A stretch of 64,000 nucleotides of DNA from Larkinella rosea (GTDB lineage: Bacteria; Bacteroidota; Bacteroidia; Cytophagales; Spirosomataceae). Position 1 is the stretch's first letter; the number at the start of each line of letters is the position of its first letter. The notes under the pieces were generated by a model. The model ran no database searches. It saw only the letters and a list, made by a program, of their open reading frames with translations, and was not told the DNA's origin. The stretch covers positions 1-64,000 of the forward strand of contig NZ_RQJO01000015.1 of assembly GCF_003858635.1 (NCBI RefSeq). The letters run 5' to 3'. The position numbers were made by a program, and so were the translations under genes. This document shows positions 10,268 through 64,000 of this stretch, piece by piece.

Positions 10268-10372
10268 CGGTTTAATTGAGAGGACAACAGAAACCATAGA
10301 ATAAATCCTTTTTGCGATCCAGCTGTCTCTGGTCCATTATCTCTTGTCTCGACTCTTTTATTCTAACATTGT

Positions 10373-32156: not shown

Positions 32157-32245
32157 CTGAGAAGTGAGAGGTGAGACAAGAGAGTAAAGACCCATCGAAA
32201 CCCAAAGTCTATACGCTCTTGTCTCACTTCTCTTGTCTATTTCTT
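32157..32245. repeat. Inverted repeat of the GAGACAAGAG family without an ORF
   Basis: The left end AGAAGTGAGAGGTGAGACAA... (about 32159-32192) matches, with three mismatches over 33 nt, the reverse complement of the right end of the four-helix-bundle cassette at 63080-63113. The right side (CTCTTGTCTCACTTCTCTTGTCT around 32216-32238) is complementary to parts of the left side. It lies in the valS leader on the minus strand, between its -7 element and start codon. Confidence 0.7.
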
Positions 32246-59287: not shown

Positions 59288-61402
59288 ATGAAACAAGGAA
59301 GTAAATTCAAACAAGCGGTTTTCGGACAATTTCTGAATCCGGTGCCAGTTAAATGGCTGTTTGGATTGATTTTGGGTATTTTGCTTCAGGGTGGAACGGC
59401 CCGGGCGCAGGGTGTTCCCCGGATTGGTAACCGCCTGGAGTTTGCCGGAGTGACGATTCTTTTAACGTCGGCAACGCAACATCTGGTCCAGCAGGAAGCG
59501 GAATTGCTGTACGTGAACCGGGCTTTGGTGACGTCCCGGCTGGAACGAATGAACTTTTACTTTCCCATTATCAAGCCTTTACTGGCTCAGAACTCCTTAT
59601 CCGACGATTTTTTGTTCCTCGCACTGCACAGCCAGATAGCCGGTTCTGATGACGTTTTCCCCGAATTCTGGGCATTGGATAAAACCAGCCTGCATGAACT
59701 CCGAAACGATGTTTTTGTTGACGAACGTCGGCACCCCATTCGCTCGACGCTGGCAGTTATTCCCCGATTGAAACAGCTTTATAGCCGAAAACCCAACTGG
59801 GTGTCGGTGGTGCATCGCTACGATCAACTGCTGCGGGCCGATACCACCCGGCTTTGGTCGCAGGAGCCCGTCGATTCGAAAATCTACGCACTGAATGATC
59901 CGCGCGACACGTTTCTGATCCGGTTGCTGGCGTCTAAAATTGTTCTGGAACGAGCGCTGTCGGTTTATCATCCTCAAAAACAGCTGGTTCTGTTCCCCTA
60001 TGAAGAATCAAGGGGGAAAAATCTACGGCAGATTGCCACACTGTGTCAGGCCAGCCAAACCGCTGTTGATCAGCACAATACATGGCTAAAATCTTCCCGG
60101 GTTCCCGATCATGAAGATTATACGGTTTACGTGCCGACCACGCTGGAACACTATGCGGAATTGAAGCAGCAAGTCAGTTCTTCGGAAGAAAACCAGGCGG
60201 TTTTACAGGATGCCGGATTTCCGCTGTTGCAGAAAAGTACGGCTGAACCGGGCGATCGGGGAGGAGTGTTTTACCGGATCAACGGTAAAAAAGGCATTCA
60301 GGCGCAGTTGTTTGATAACCGGATTACGCTGGCTTATCAGGGTAAATTAAAAATCGATAAGTTTCAGAAATACAATGATTTGCGCAGTGACCGACCGATT
60401 GTAGCCGGTGAAATTTATTATTTACGGAAAAAAAGCAAACGGGCGAATGTACCGTTTCACATTGTCAGAAAAGGGCAATCGCTGTGGGCCATCGCGCAGC
60501 AGTACGGGATTCTGCTTGATAAACTGATTGAATACAATGATGTAAACCCGGAGCAGCAGCCCGCCGTGGCCCGGATTTTATGGCTTCAGAAGAAACGGCC
60601 GGCCAATCTGCCGGTTGAGTATTACCGCGGCCCGGTAAAACCGGGTACAACCGATCCCACCCCGAAACCGGAGCCGGTTCTGGCGGTTGCACAACCGGAT
60701 TCTGCTGATAAAAAAACGGTGCCCGAGCTGGCCGGGTCTTCGGAACGAATAGCAACCGAAAAACCGCCAGCCTCGGTTCCGGCGCGAAGTACGCTGGCTG
60801 CGTTGGATAGTATGATTGCGATGTTGAACGAACCGCAAATGCCGCTCATTCGCTCCAGTGCGGCAAAAATGATTGTGCCTGCCAGCCTGAATGAGAAGGT
60901 GATGCCCGCAAAACCGGTCGAGGAAGAACCGGAAGAAGTAAGCGGCCCGTTGGTGATGCACATTGCCGAAAAAACCGATACGTATGCGACGATTGCCCGG
61001 AAATACAATGTAACAGTTCAGCAACTGTACATCTGGAATAATCTATCAGCCCAAAAACCGCTGCGTCCCGGTCAGGCATTGTTGGTTGACCAGTCAAAAT
61101 CGCCTACCCAAAAAGGGTTAGTTCCGCTAGCTGCAAAACCCAGTCCGGTAAACCCAGCCGTGGCAAAACCGGCTTCGGTACCTGCTTCCAAGCCCGCAGC
61201 AATTAAGTCGGCGGTTGGTGTACCAACCGCACCACCAGTGGCCGGTTCGGGCGATGAACTCATTCATATTGTGCAGGCTGGTGAAAATATGTACCGGATT
61301 GGTCTGCGCTATAAAGTAAAACCGGAGCAGGTTCGGCAATGGAATAATTTACCGGATCTGACAGCGGTTGTTGGTGCCCGGTTGGTGATCCACAAAAAAT
61401 AA
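59288..61402 (+). CDS. Degenerate MltD-like lytic transglycosylase with three LysM domains
   Basis: 704 residues with a signal peptide ending TARAQ (about residue 41). The N-terminal domain follows Bacteroidota MltD in outline: GNRLEFAGVTILLTSAT, YFPIIKPLLAQNSLSDDFLFLAL, VDERRHPIRST, LLASKIVLERAL, then the WLKSSRVPDHEDYTVYVPT linker. But the catalytic ES of the family is HSQ here, and the adjoining SS-AVGFWQF block is missing, so the glutamate general acid is absent. LysM domains lie near residues 390-430, 556-600 and 657-700. Predicted non-catalytic peptidoglycan binder. Between the LysM domains are Pro/Ala-rich linkers. Confidence 0.85.
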   Translation: MKQGSKFKQAVFGQFLNPVPVKWLFGLILGILLQGGTARAQGVPRIGNRLEFAGVTILLTSATQHLVQQEAELLYVNRALVTSRLERMNFYFPIIKPLLAQNSLSDDFLFLALHSQIAGSDDVFPEFWALDKTSLHELRNDVFVDERRHPIRSTLAVIPRLKQLYSRKPNWVSVVHRYDQLLRADTTRLWSQEPVDSKIYALNDPRDTFLIRLLASKIVLERALSVYHPQKQLVLFPYEESRGKNLRQIATLCQASQTAVDQHNTWLKSSRVPDHEDYTVYVPTTLEHYAELKQQVSSSEENQAVLQDAGFPLLQKSTAEPGDRGGVFYRINGKKGIQAQLFDNRITLAYQGKLKIDKFQKYNDLRSDRPIVAGEIYYLRKKSKRANVPFHIVRKGQSLWAIAQQYGILLDKLIEYNDVNPEQQPAVARILWLQKKRPANLPVEYYRGPVKPGTTDPTPKPEPVLAVAQPDSADKKTVPELAGSSERIATEKPPASVPARSTLAALDSMIAMLNEPQMPLIRSSAAKMIVPASLNEKVMPAKPVEEEPEEVSGPLVMHIAEKTDTYATIARKYNVTVQQLYIWNNLSAQKPLRPGQALLVDQSKSPTQKGLVPLAAKPSPVNPAVAKPASVPASKPAAIKSAVGVPTAPPVAGSGDELIHIVQAGENMYRIGLRYKVKPEQVRQWNNLPDLTAVVGARLVIHKK

Positions 61403-61422
61403 AGGGAACCGTTGGCTCCCTT
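61402..61422. terminator. Weak terminator-like hairpin between LysM and thiolase genes
   Basis: AAGGGA (61402-61407) pairs with TCCCTT (61417-61422), with two more pairs inside after one mismatch. Convergent genes; usable on both strands, but weak. Confidence 0.42.
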
Positions 61423-61451
61423 CTGTTCAAATCATTCAAAAAGTTCTGTTT

Positions 61452-62627
61452 TTAAAGCCGTTCAAAAATTCCGGCGACGCCCTGACCTCCGCCGACACAG
61501 GCCGAAACCATGCCGTATTTCTGGTTTTGCCGTTCCATTTCATTCAGGAGTTGCACCGATAACCGGGCTCCCGTTGAACCGAGCGCATGACCGAGTGCAA
61601 TGGCGCCCCCGTTCGGATTGATCTTGCCGCGATCCAGTCCAAGTTCCTGAATAACCGCCAGCGATTGGGCCGCAAAGGCTTCGTTTAGTTCGATCTGGTC
61701 AATGTCGTCCTGCTTGAGACCGGCTTTTTTCAGTGCCAGCGGAATCGCGTTGACCGGCCCGATTCCCATGATTCGGGGCTCCACGCCCGCGGCTGCGTAC
61801 GACATCATGCGCGCTTTCGGTTTCAAACCCAGTTCGTTCACCAGTTTTTCCGACATGACAATGACAAAGGCCGCTCCGTCGGAGGTTTGCGACGAGTTCC
61901 CGGCGGTGACCGATCCGCCCGCGGCAAAAACCGGTTTTAGTTTATTCAGGGCTTCAAAGCTGGTGTCGGCGCGCGGGCCTTCGTCTTTGCCAACCGTCCA
62001 CTCGCGGGTTTTCTTTTTGCCCGAATCGGCGTCGAAATAGGTTTCTTTCACCGAAATCGGCACAATCTCACCGTCGAACTTTCCGGCAGCCTGAGCCGCC
62101 AGCGCTTTCTGATGCGATTCGTAGGCAAACTGGTCCTGCGCTTCCCGGTCAATTTTAAATTGCTCGGCTACCTGCTCGGCGGTTAGCCCCATGCCGATGT
62201 AATAATCCGGGTGTTTCTGCGCGATTTCGAAGTTCAGAGCGGTTTTCCAGCCCATTACCGGCACCAGCGACATTGATTCCGTTCCTCCGGCAATGATGCA
62301 ATCGGCTAGCCCCGCGTGGATTTTGGCCGAGGCAATGGCAATGGCTTCGAGTCCCGAGCCGCAATACCGGTTGATGGTCATCCCCGGCACACTTTTGGGC
62401 AGCGACAGCAAGGCAATATACCGGGCGATTTGCATGCCCTGTTCGGCTTCCGGCACGGCATTACCGACAATCAGGTCTTCCACGCGGGCGGGATCGAAAT
62501 TCGGAAGCTGCGCCAGCAAATGGTTGATGACTTCAGCCGCCAGGTCGTCCGGTCGGGTGAGTCGCAATCCGCCCCGGGGAGCTTTCCCGACGGCGGTTCT
62601 ATATCCAGCTACGATGTATGCGTCCAT
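61452..62627 (-). CDS. Thiolase, acetyl-CoA C-acyltransferase
   Basis: 391 residues. Nucleophile Cys in INRYCGSGLEAIAIASA (about residue 88), the C-terminal His in NPNGGAIALGHALGSTGAR and the Cys of VSACVGGGQGVAG complete the active site. Beta-oxidation thiolase (FadA-like) is favoured over biosynthetic thiolase by the FadN-like gene upstream on the same strand. Between the two lies the four-helix-bundle cassette, so the message would carry this as an inserted segment. Confidence 0.94.
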   Translation of the reverse strand: MDAYIVAGYRTAVGKAPRGGLRLTRPDDLAAEVINHLLAQLPNFDPARVEDLIVGNAVPEAEQGMQIARYIALLSLPKSVPGMTINRYCGSGLEAIAIASAKIHAGLADCIIAGGTESMSLVPVMGWKTALNFEIAQKHPDYYIGMGLTAEQVAEQFKIDREAQDQFAYESHQKALAAQAAGKFDGEIVPISVKETYFDADSGKKKTREWTVGKDEGPRADTSFEALNKLKPVFAAGGSVTAGNSSQTSDGAAFVIVMSEKLVNELGLKPKARMMSYAAAGVEPRIMGIGPVNAIPLALKKAGLKQDDIDQIELNEAFAAQSLAVIQELGLDRGKINPNGGAIALGHALGSTGARLSVQLLNEMERQNQKYGMVSACVGGGQGVAGIFERL

Positions 62628-62650
62628 GTTTTATTGAGATTAAAGAGGGT

Positions 62651-63095
62651 AGACAAGAGACAAGAGATATTCTCACATTTAGGAAGAAATCGGACTTTCA
62701 AACTTCTTATGCAGTGAGAATATCATTTTCTGGATCTCATGTAATCTCTGGGTTATTTCTAGAACAATAGTTTCTGTTAGAAAATTGAGACGATTTGCCA
62801 CGATTAGCTGTGTTTCTAATTCGTAAGACGAAGCGAGCGAAATAGATAAGAAACGAGCGAATTCTTTATTGCTTCCGCGTCCGGAGCCTTCCGCAATATT
62901 GGAAGGAATAGAAATCGCCGACCGCTTGATTTGAGAAATCAAACCGAATTTCTCTTCATTTGGAAACTGGGTAGTTAATAGGTAAACACTGGTCACAAAA
63001 TCTACCGATAACTGCCAAACTTTCAGGTTTCTAAAATTGTGTGTTTCCATTTTCTAAATGTGAGGTTACTGTGCAAGGTCTTTATTCTCTTGTCT
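62651..63095. mobile_element. Inverted-repeat cassette enclosing a four-helix-bundle ORF (IVS-like)
   Basis: Two matched arm pairs: AGACAAGAGA (62651-62660) with TCTCTTGTCT (63086-63095), and CTCACATTTA (62672-62681) with TAAATGTGAG (63055-63064). The outer right end also matches (33 nt, 3 mismatches) the palindromic element at 32157. The ORF fills the interval: ATG 4 bp inside one arm, stop codon inside the other. Sits between the FadN-like and thiolase genes. Confidence 0.68.
62679..63050 (-). CDS. Four-helix-bundle protein (S23/IVP family)
   Basis: 123 residues. The family signature is visible: FRNLKVWQLSVDFVTSVYLLTTQFPNEEKFGLISQIKRSAISIPSNIAEGSGR (the W, the FP..E.FGL..QI..A..S.P.NIAEG motif), then the ELETQLIVA segment. 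Proteins of this group are encoded in 23S rRNA intervening sequences and also as stand-alone genes in Bacteroidota; the Avd protein of diversity-generating retroelements has the same fold. Biochemical role unresolved (nucleic acid binding is suspected). Its stop codon lies in one arm of the surrounding inverted repeat. Confidence 0.9.
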   Translation of the reverse strand: METHNFRNLKVWQLSVDFVTSVYLLTTQFPNEEKFGLISQIKRSAISIPSNIAEGSGRGSNKEFARFLSISLASSYELETQLIVANRLNFLTETIVLEITQRLHEIQKMIFSLHKKFESPISS

Positions 63096-63115
63096 CACAT
63101 CTCGCTTCTAAAAAA

Positions 63116-64000
63116 TCAGTTTCTCGGCGGTTTTCCTCCGTTCAATAACCCCTGAAGCCGCTCCAGCGTCTTTTTCTCACCGGTTAAGGATAGAAAAGCT
63201 TCGCGCTCCAGATCGATCAAATACTGTTCGGATACGGTTTGCGGTGTGCTCAGATCACCTCCACAAATGACGTACGCCAGCTTTTCGGCGATTTTTTGAT
63301 CGTGGTCGGAAATGTAGCGACCCATGCGCATGGCCGTTATCCCGGCTTTGAACAACGCAATTCCGGTTTTGCCCTGTACTTTGATGTCGTTGCGTGGTTT
63401 GGGTTGCGTATACCCGTTTTCAGCCAGCTCGATGGCGACTTGTTTCGCTTCGGCAATCAGGCGGTTTCGGTTCAGCACTACCTGCGCCGAGGGCAGCAGG
63501 TAGTTCATCTCGCGGGCTTCCTGCGCCGAGGTCGAAACCTTCGCCGTGGCAATGTTCATGAAAATGCTTTGCAGAATGTTCAGTTCGGGATCACCGGTTT
63601 GGTAAAGATCGCTGGCGCGGGCGGCCATTTCCTTGGTTCCTCCCCCTGCCGGAATCAGGCCGACGCCCACTTCCACCAGACCCATGTACAGTTCTGAATG
63701 CGCCACCACGCGGTCGACGTGCAGATTCAGTTCACAGCCCCCGCCGAGCGCCAGCGAATGCGGAGCGCCGACGACCGGAATGGACGAATACCGTGCGCGC
63801 ATCATCGTTTGCTGGAATTGCGCAATCATGAGGTTGATCTCGTCAAATTCCTGTTCGATGGCAAACATAAAGAGCGTCGCCAGATTGGCTCCCGCCGTAT
63901 ACGCTTCCGACGATTCATTGCCGATCACCAAACCGCGAAAATCTTTCTCCGCCAGACTGATGGCTTTTTGAATGCCTTCGATTACCTCGGCACCCATCGT
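63116..64000 (-). CDS. 3-hydroxyacyl-CoA dehydrogenase/enoyl-CoA hydratase (FadN-like), C-terminal part only
   Basis: The gene runs off the window on its 5' side; about 294 codons are present. This portion is the enoyl-CoA hydratase domain: GLVIGNESSEAYTAGANLATLF, VVGAPHSLALGGGCELNLHVDRVVAHSELYMGLVEVGVGLIPAGGGTKEM (crotonase oxyanion and Glu motifs), and the end TLERLQGLLNGGKPPRN, typical of FadN-type proteins in which the 3HCDH domain precedes the hydratase domain. Catalyses hydration and oxidation of beta-oxidation intermediates. The methionine at 63997 is internal. Confidence 0.9.
   Translation of the reverse strand, partial: TMGAEVIEGIQKAISLAEKDFRGLVIGNESSEAYTAGANLATLFMFAIEQEFDEINLMIAQFQQTMMRARYSSIPVVGAPHSLALGGGCELNLHVDRVVAHSELYMGLVEVGVGLIPAGGGTKEMAARASDLYQTGDPELNILQSIFMNIATAKVSTSAQEAREMNYLLPSAQVVLNRNRLIAEAKQVAIELAENGYTQPKPRNDIKVQGKTGIALFKAGITAMRMGRYISDHDQKIAEKLAYVICGGDLSTPQTVSEQYLIDLEREAFLSLTGEKKTLERLQGLLNGGKPPRN

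Follow-up and report, generated by a model that had tools for sequence, protein, structure and literature searches.

In Coxiella, an S23 open reading frame (ORF) lies in an intervening sequence (IVS) of ribosomal RNA (rRNA) that is bordered by complementary sequences and cut out by RNase III (PMC4990558). The same source describes a Xanthomonas relative as a homopentamer in its solved structure and reports the function of S23p as not known. Homology between S23 and Avd is stated in PMC10053308. In the REPtrons and TIRtrons formed by REP-associated tyrosine transposases (RAYTs) and repetitive extragenic palindromic (REP) sequences, the gene lies within palindromic or terminal inverted repeats, and ORF-less copies are dispersed as a family (PMC3733652). 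Here, we describe an S23 gene in a 64,000-nucleotide (nt) stretch of Larkinella rosea (contig NZ_RQJO01000015.1, positions 1 to 64,000; the window). The gene, a 123-codon four-helix-bundle ORF, lies within the loop of a long palindrome with arms of degenerate 7-nt repeats (heptads), and the layout recurs at S23 genes across Bacteroidota. These results suggest that S23 genes with heptad arms are an unrecognised kind of mobile element in this phylum.

The S23 cassette resembles the Coxiella IVS (PMC4990558) in its protein family and in having an ORF within complementary ends in a transcribed unit. However, it lies between protein genes, has heptad arms, and is present several times per genome together with ORF-less relatives. 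Like a REPtron, it has its gene within inverted repeats and ORF-less copies dispersed as a family, and its gene lineage corresponds to its repeat family. Unlike a REPtron, it encodes a PF05635 four-helix bundle instead of an HUH tyrosine transposase, and its arms are 7-nt periodic. The closest layout is that of the RAYT-REP REPtron rather than of the rRNA IVS alone. Avd of diversity-generating retroelements has a related fold; the window ORF matches bAvd with E 7.4e-6 and 26.9 bits, under the cut-off of 40, and the Avd model NF033474 with 22.5 bits, under the cut-off of 80. The TAACTGA heptamers of Beggiatoaceae, Cyanobacteria and five Bacteroidetes (PMC4679880) are intergenic 7-nt repeats, as the S23 arms are, but they are direct repeats of one fixed heptamer, unlike the paired arms, and the main text of that paper contains neither the term S23 nor intervening sequence. 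A table for Flavobacterium columnare places a four-helix-bundle gene between those for guanylate kinase and nicotinic acid mononucleotide adenylyltransferase (PMC5524665). Among the matches listed for open-licence PubMed Central titles and abstracts, none joined S23 or PF05635 to heptad arms or dispersed repeats.

The window cassette and heptad arms across Bacteroidota

A preliminary description of the window had identified the ORF as an S23/IVP gene, and profile searches agree. The ORF matches PF05635 with E 8.7e-40 (135.7 bits, above the curated cut-off of 33.8) and TIGR02436 with 125.9 bits (above the cut-off of 24), and its closest solved structures, 2gsc (E 8.2e-21) and 2rld, have five chains each. 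Pfam searches of the window ORF returned PF05635 and a bAvd match under its cut-off, with no HUH tyrosine transposase. No rRNA match was found in positions 61001-64000, in which the cassette separates a FadN-like gene from a thiolase gene. The same description had placed two pairs of complementary 10-mers around the ORF (62651-62660 with 63086-63095, and 62672-62681 with 63055-63064). Both are present, and when the two intergenic pieces were shuffled 20,000 times with dinucleotides preserved, no shuffle gave two collinear pairs, compared to 436 that gave at least one. The stop codon (62679-62681) does lie within the inner arm, with the ATG (63048-63050) 4 nt inside the other. The 10-mers are real, but the arms are actually longer series of degenerate 7-nt repeats (Table 1). 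Because the cassette sits in the sense orientation at the junction of FadN and thiolase in a beta-oxidation gene cluster, S23 is probably translated from that message.

To place this layout, 112 S23 loci were collected: 3 from the same genome, 29 from relatives and 80 named loci selected for likeness to the window protein. Genomes and loci are given below by G and L numbers. After removal of six near-duplicates or second loci, and of L179 for a short flank, 105 loci were analysed, with 150-nt flanks on each side called complementary at a score of at least 10. Complementary flanks were found at 85 of the 105 S23 loci, as compared to 113/840 cross-locus pairs, 33/420 shuffles and 79/266 other genes of the same loci; arms are thus present at other copies of the family. 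Control genes with flank scores of at least 12 numbered 20, five of which were S23 genes themselves. Identity at a lag of 7 nt was 0.40 in the S23 flanks on both sides, as compared to 0.29 (upstream) and 0.28 (downstream) after shuffling, and 7 was the best lag in 70/105 upstream and 62/105 downstream flanks. The lag analysis of these 105 loci detected no 7-nt period in the ORF body or in the far flanks. Arms had a median length of 27 nt at the 100 of 132 S23 loci possessing them. Matches to PF05635 were found in 232 of 296 sampled Bacteroidota genomes, with a top copy number of at least 15. The heptad-arm layout is the rule for the sampled Bacteroidota S23 genes.

A location in rRNA was also considered for S23 loci with weak arms and is unsupported, as Rfam found no rRNA in the eight loci checked (seven of the 20 scoring below 10, plus L168). 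By eye, heptad-like arms were seen in metagenome-assembled genomes assigned to Patescibacteria (L125), Omnitrophota (L178) and Chlorobiota (L114), where binning errors are possible, and were absent from one assigned to Alphaproteobacteria (L163).

Most compared S23 pairs are under purifying selection. The ratio of nonsynonymous to synonymous substitution rates (dN/dS) was 0.03-0.16 in 14 pair comparisons, two of which had saturated dS, and was 0.08, 0.10 and 0.08 for the window gene against three congeners. This differs from the reductive evolution reported for the Coxiella S23 ORF (PMC4990558). In the case of a second S23 copy in the L. rosea genome (L002, G000:C13:301888-302202), an in-frame TAA was observed, whereas its 97%-identical G004 copy (L316) has no stop.

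Table 1. Features of the window: the S23 cassette, its neighbouring genes and ORF-less elements.
Feature	Position	Strand	Basis
S23/IVP four-helix-bundle ORF, 123 aa	62679..63050	-	PF05635, TIGR02436, PDB 2gsc match, dN/dS
Upstream arm, degenerate 7-nt repeats AGAAGCG/AGATGTG/AGACAAG/AGAATAA/AGACC	63077..63109	-	sequence reading; GTGAGACAAGAG family; complementary to downstream arm
Downstream arm, complementary degenerate 7-nt repeats	62636..62669 (limits approximate)	-	sequence reading, complementarity, shuffles
Inner arm, ATG side	63051..63064	-	14 nt, 93% complementary to 62672-62685
Inner arm, stop-codon side, overlapping ORF end	62672..62685	-	14-nt pairing with 63051-63064
Thiolase (acetyl-CoA C-acyltransferase), next gene downstream of S23	61452..62627	-	profile searches
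FadN-like 3-hydroxyacyl-CoA dehydrogenase/crotonase, C-terminal part, previous gene	63116..64000 (leaves window)	-	naming model under its cut-off
ORF-less heptad hairpin, GAGACAAGAG family as window arms	32157..32240	.	arm match, motif search
Second candidate ORF-less element, GACAAGAGA family	10283..10348	.	motif clustering only

Arm families, ORF-less hairpins and loop contents

In the genus of the window, 17 S23 copies were compared and assigned by eye to eight lineages. Identity between lineages was 4-52% with flank scores of 6-14, as compared to flank scores of 20-113 within lineages, whose members often occupy the same site. Among 86 loci with arms of at least 18 nt, S23 identity correlated with arm similarity (r 0.33, permuted maximum 0.14) over the 3548 of 3655 pairs that involved different sites. 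Each S23 lineage possesses its own arm vocabulary. A fixed IVS end sequence is ruled out, as lineages and genomes vary in arm sequence and have only the heptad design in common. The IVS-type mobile unit of the preliminary description withstands the refutation proposed there and survives in part. The element is cassette-like, has complementary ends outside rRNA and is present or absent in congeners, but its ends are lineage-specific heptad arms, not conserved IVS ends.

An ORF-less relative at 32157 had been put forward as a sign that the ends exist alone, and this hairpin is real. The outer-arm 12-mer GTGAGACAAGAG has 34 matches in the 8.17-Mb genome, representing 26 sites by our own count, as compared to 0 for the reversed pattern. 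The sites read by eye are mostly short intergenic hairpins resembling the one at 32157. ORF-less sites of this family outnumber ORF-bearing sites, of which the genome has one only. A second family in the same genome (GACNNTTGACNNTTGAC) has 53 matches compared to 1 for its control, and a third has only 6 compared to 1. When 36 ORF-less hairpins from six congeners were compared to congeneric S23 flanks, 29 scored at least 16, and the mean best score was 20.4; other S23 flanks chosen at random gave 12.0, and none of 20 draws exceeded 14.2. Genomes of the window's genus carry such short ORF-less palindromes, with matching arms, at scattered sites. Period-7 hairpins in 100-kb samples numbered 0, 0, 1, 0, 0 and 0 in six of the nine relatives that lack S23, as compared to 0-6.25 per 100 kb in 16 S23-bearing genomes (p 0.02). 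Hairpins of different arm families were also seen to have a common loop motif, GGCTGACGCA (G003/G002 stretches L189-L196 and L201-L208).

Loop contents were assessed by a scan for inverted repeats with heptad arms and a loop length of about 130-1500 nt in 2.16 Mb, comprising 80 S23-centred loci and 800 kb from six congeners. All 40 matches were in the S23-centred loci. An S23 ORF was present in 31/31 loops of 350-650 nt (three nested in L138), and five of these were further S23 copies absent from the search set (L103, L105, L116, L147 and L178; four verified by BLAST and the fifth by Pfam). Of the seven loops longer than 1100 nt, that of L170 contained an S23 ORF, and the other six spanned host genes lying between two hairpins; a pair of short loops in L138 was empty.

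Other gene families of the same relatives served as controls. Complementary flanks, by the same score, were found at 13/30 Y1_Tnp loci and at 7/18 DUF559 loci (12 of 30 having been removed for a long ORF or a short flank), but a 7-nt period was absent from both sets, unlike the S23 flanks. Generic palindrome flanking of small mobile genes is therefore ruled out as an account of the arms. The exception is a DUF559 ORF of Adhaeribacter soli (L155:2716-3094; PF04480, E 6e-31), which lies within heptad-style arms with a score of 29.5; it shares its contig stretch with an S23 locus, and cargo exchange is possible. Three DUF559 genes (L368, L365 and L371, in relatives G008, G047 and G040) have long flanking G-rich palindromes of the CCCCTCCTTACCAAGGAGGGG type, an association of gene and repeat distinct from the S23 heptads. 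A reversed-sequence hairpin control was uninformative, as reversal preserves inverted repeats, and was left unused.

Filled and empty sites in congeners

The FadN-thiolase junction carries the cassette in four of nine congeners (G000, G002, G003 and G007), so it is not present in all relatives, and, outside the genus, in G033; 25 of the 30 FadN loci examined lack it. In G001 (L078), G004 (L072) and G006 (L074), a PIN-domain ORF preceded by a small ORF stands in place of S23, called by PF01850 in the G004 copy and by likeness in the other two. The junction measures 70 nt in G008. In G005 (L077), another insert with a RelB-like ORF under the cut-off was seen.

Two further cassettes vary in a similar manner. 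The L315 cassette of G002 occupies 463 nt, as compared to nearly clean empty sites of 9 nt in G003 and 10 nt in G007 and to 26 nt in G008; it is present in G001, G005 and G006, and an ORF-less heptad hairpin of another family takes the site in G000 and G004. The intact L320 cassette of G007 is absent from 8/8 other congeners, which have 37-132 nt at the site; in four of these read by eye, some hairpin was seen in three and none in G008. Among the short elements, the one at G003 47052 is the one clear presence/absence case. At some other sites read by eye, congeners differ by whole heptads, by an inverted loop, or by arms that have been rewritten or belong to another family, each copy still pairing with itself, and several sites are nearly unchanged between congeners. 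Both cassettes and short elements therefore vary in presence between congeners at orthologous intergenic sites. A comparison of 11 equal-length orthologous hairpins gave 17 double changes in 274 pairs as compared to 3.2 expected, although 11 came from hairpin 128930, which is apparently misaligned by one base. Without it, recomputation by hand gave 6 double changes (5 of them Watson-Crick) in 256 pairs, as compared to about 0.9 expected.

Many S23 loci (36/112) lie in a fadN-thiolase-acyl-CoA dehydrogenase cluster and are oriented like its genes, a share that is inflated because the 80 named loci most resemble the window protein. The slot between fadN and thiolase (slot A) holds 27 loci, four of which are the congeners' copies of the window site. 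The slot between thiolase and acyl-CoA dehydrogenase (slot B) holds nine (L057, L102, L103, L107, L108, L111, L143, L160 and L177), suggesting that the beta-oxidation cluster has been hit repeatedly. One more S23 gene (L174) is about 1.6 kb from fadN. On the S23 tree, which has 122 columns only, 50 of 108 inner branches open and a very long L003 row, slot A requires 12 changes (shuffled mean 24.4), at least 4 of them forced by starred branches, and slot B requires 8 (shuffled mean 8.8). Slot B is therefore not clustered, whereas slot A is, which makes some vertical descent likely. A single old FadN-thiolase insertion inherited vertically is not favoured as the whole story because of the number of changes, some of them forced, at slot A. 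The history of the beta-oxidation slots involves both inheritance, to some extent, and repeated gain or loss.

Explanations for the pairing of S23 with heptads

The reading we prefer, at a probability of slightly over one half, is a lineage-specific S23-heptad cassette, organised like a REPtron, with an S23 protein that acts on its own arms. The protein, a homopentamer in the Xanthomonas relative (PMC4990558), would recognise its heptad arms in DNA or RNA, and we infer that the pentamer reads the heptads. By analogy with RAYT transposases and REP palindromes, S23 may make the arms spread and stay complementary. Since S23 has no known nuclease domain, the chemistry would have to come from a host activity in replication, recombination or reverse transcription. 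A wider version is tentative and has perhaps one chance in three: Bacteroidota S23 genes may be the core of phylum-wide mobile palindromic elements without a dedicated transposase, in which each arm offers the pentameric bundle about four 7-nt repeats to read, intergenic hairpin slots receive copies of the hairpin made by host enzymes, and the rRNA IVS is a branch that landed in rRNA helices.

Several observations weigh against the REPtron-like cassette. The reading is slightly weakened because the loop scan found nothing in the 800 kb of congener stretches outside S23-centred loci, where the window's own weaker arms also fall under the cut-off, and because the L315 S23 is interrupted by an in-frame stop. 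Such stops occur in the S23 of 7/132 loci, and the flank score is below 10 in 20/105. G003 and G007 have at least 86 and at least 90 matches to the L315 query, those listed being its two flanks and otherwise arm matches, and no match to the L315 S23 gene in either genome is among the matches listed; arm copies therefore outlast that S23 or do not need it. Short period-7 hairpins were absent from the 100 kb sampled in 6 of the 16 S23-bearing genomes (G024, G023, G012, G028, G045 and G056), and ORF-less copies are thus not an obligatory product. Hairpin density did not correlate significantly with S23 copy number (Spearman 0.24), and the contrast with S23-less relatives is confounded by genus, six of the S23-bearing genomes being from one genus. 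S23 distance is also partly correlated with host distance. At the junctions read by eye no clear target-site duplication was found, and no transposition was observed.

The arms could instead act in RNA, with RNase III or another nuclease cutting the message stem and separating the cistrons as in a pre-23S IVS, and with the DNA family as a by-product. The excised Coxiella IVS (PMC4990558) is in keeping with this, as is orientation, S23 being codirectional with both neighbours at 91/103 loci as compared to 200/396 background triplets. The cassette RNA folds with a z of -3.2, and inner and outer arms are paired in the centroid but not in the minimum-energy structure. However, arm mismatches in the sense strand (89/105 loci) comprise 143 G.U as compared to 197 A.C, which is opposite to the RNA expectation, although flank base skew may explain the direction. 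RNA-level selection on the stem is thus unsupported, as is the cut or excised message of the preliminary description. The loop inversions between congeners, seen by eye, point to DNA-level events, and the ORF-less hairpins are dispersed. We consider an intercistronic IVS unlikely. An account in which the heptad palindromes are host repeats, spread by a RAYT-type transposase or template switching, with S23 genes settling in the loops, has an equally small share of our confidence. Y1_Tnp genes are common (50/59 relatives), template-switch correction of quasipalindromes is a known process, some congeners have many arm copies with no matching S23 gene among the matches listed, and the DUF559 ORF of L155 likewise sits in heptad arms. 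As groups, however, Y1_Tnp and DUF559 flanks have no 7-nt period, the mid-size loops of the scanned loci contain S23, and arm vocabulary tracks S23 lineage both within one genus and across sites.

A domesticated operon part, in which S23 and its hairpin form a regulatory or processing module under selection in metabolic operons such as beta-oxidation, would fit the low dN/dS values and the same-orientation loci of slots A and B. Yet two different slots are in use, the tree requires repeated changes at both, most of the relatives' FadN loci lack the cassette, and the named loci were picked for likeness to the window copy. This explanation appears improbable.

Under the REPtron-like reading, the link of each S23 lineage to its own heptad arms provides a very common protein with a concrete, testable partner. 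The S23-heptad pairing would account for a class of Bacteroidota intergenic repeats, and it allows rRNA IVS, Avd and REP-like elements to be viewed within one framework.
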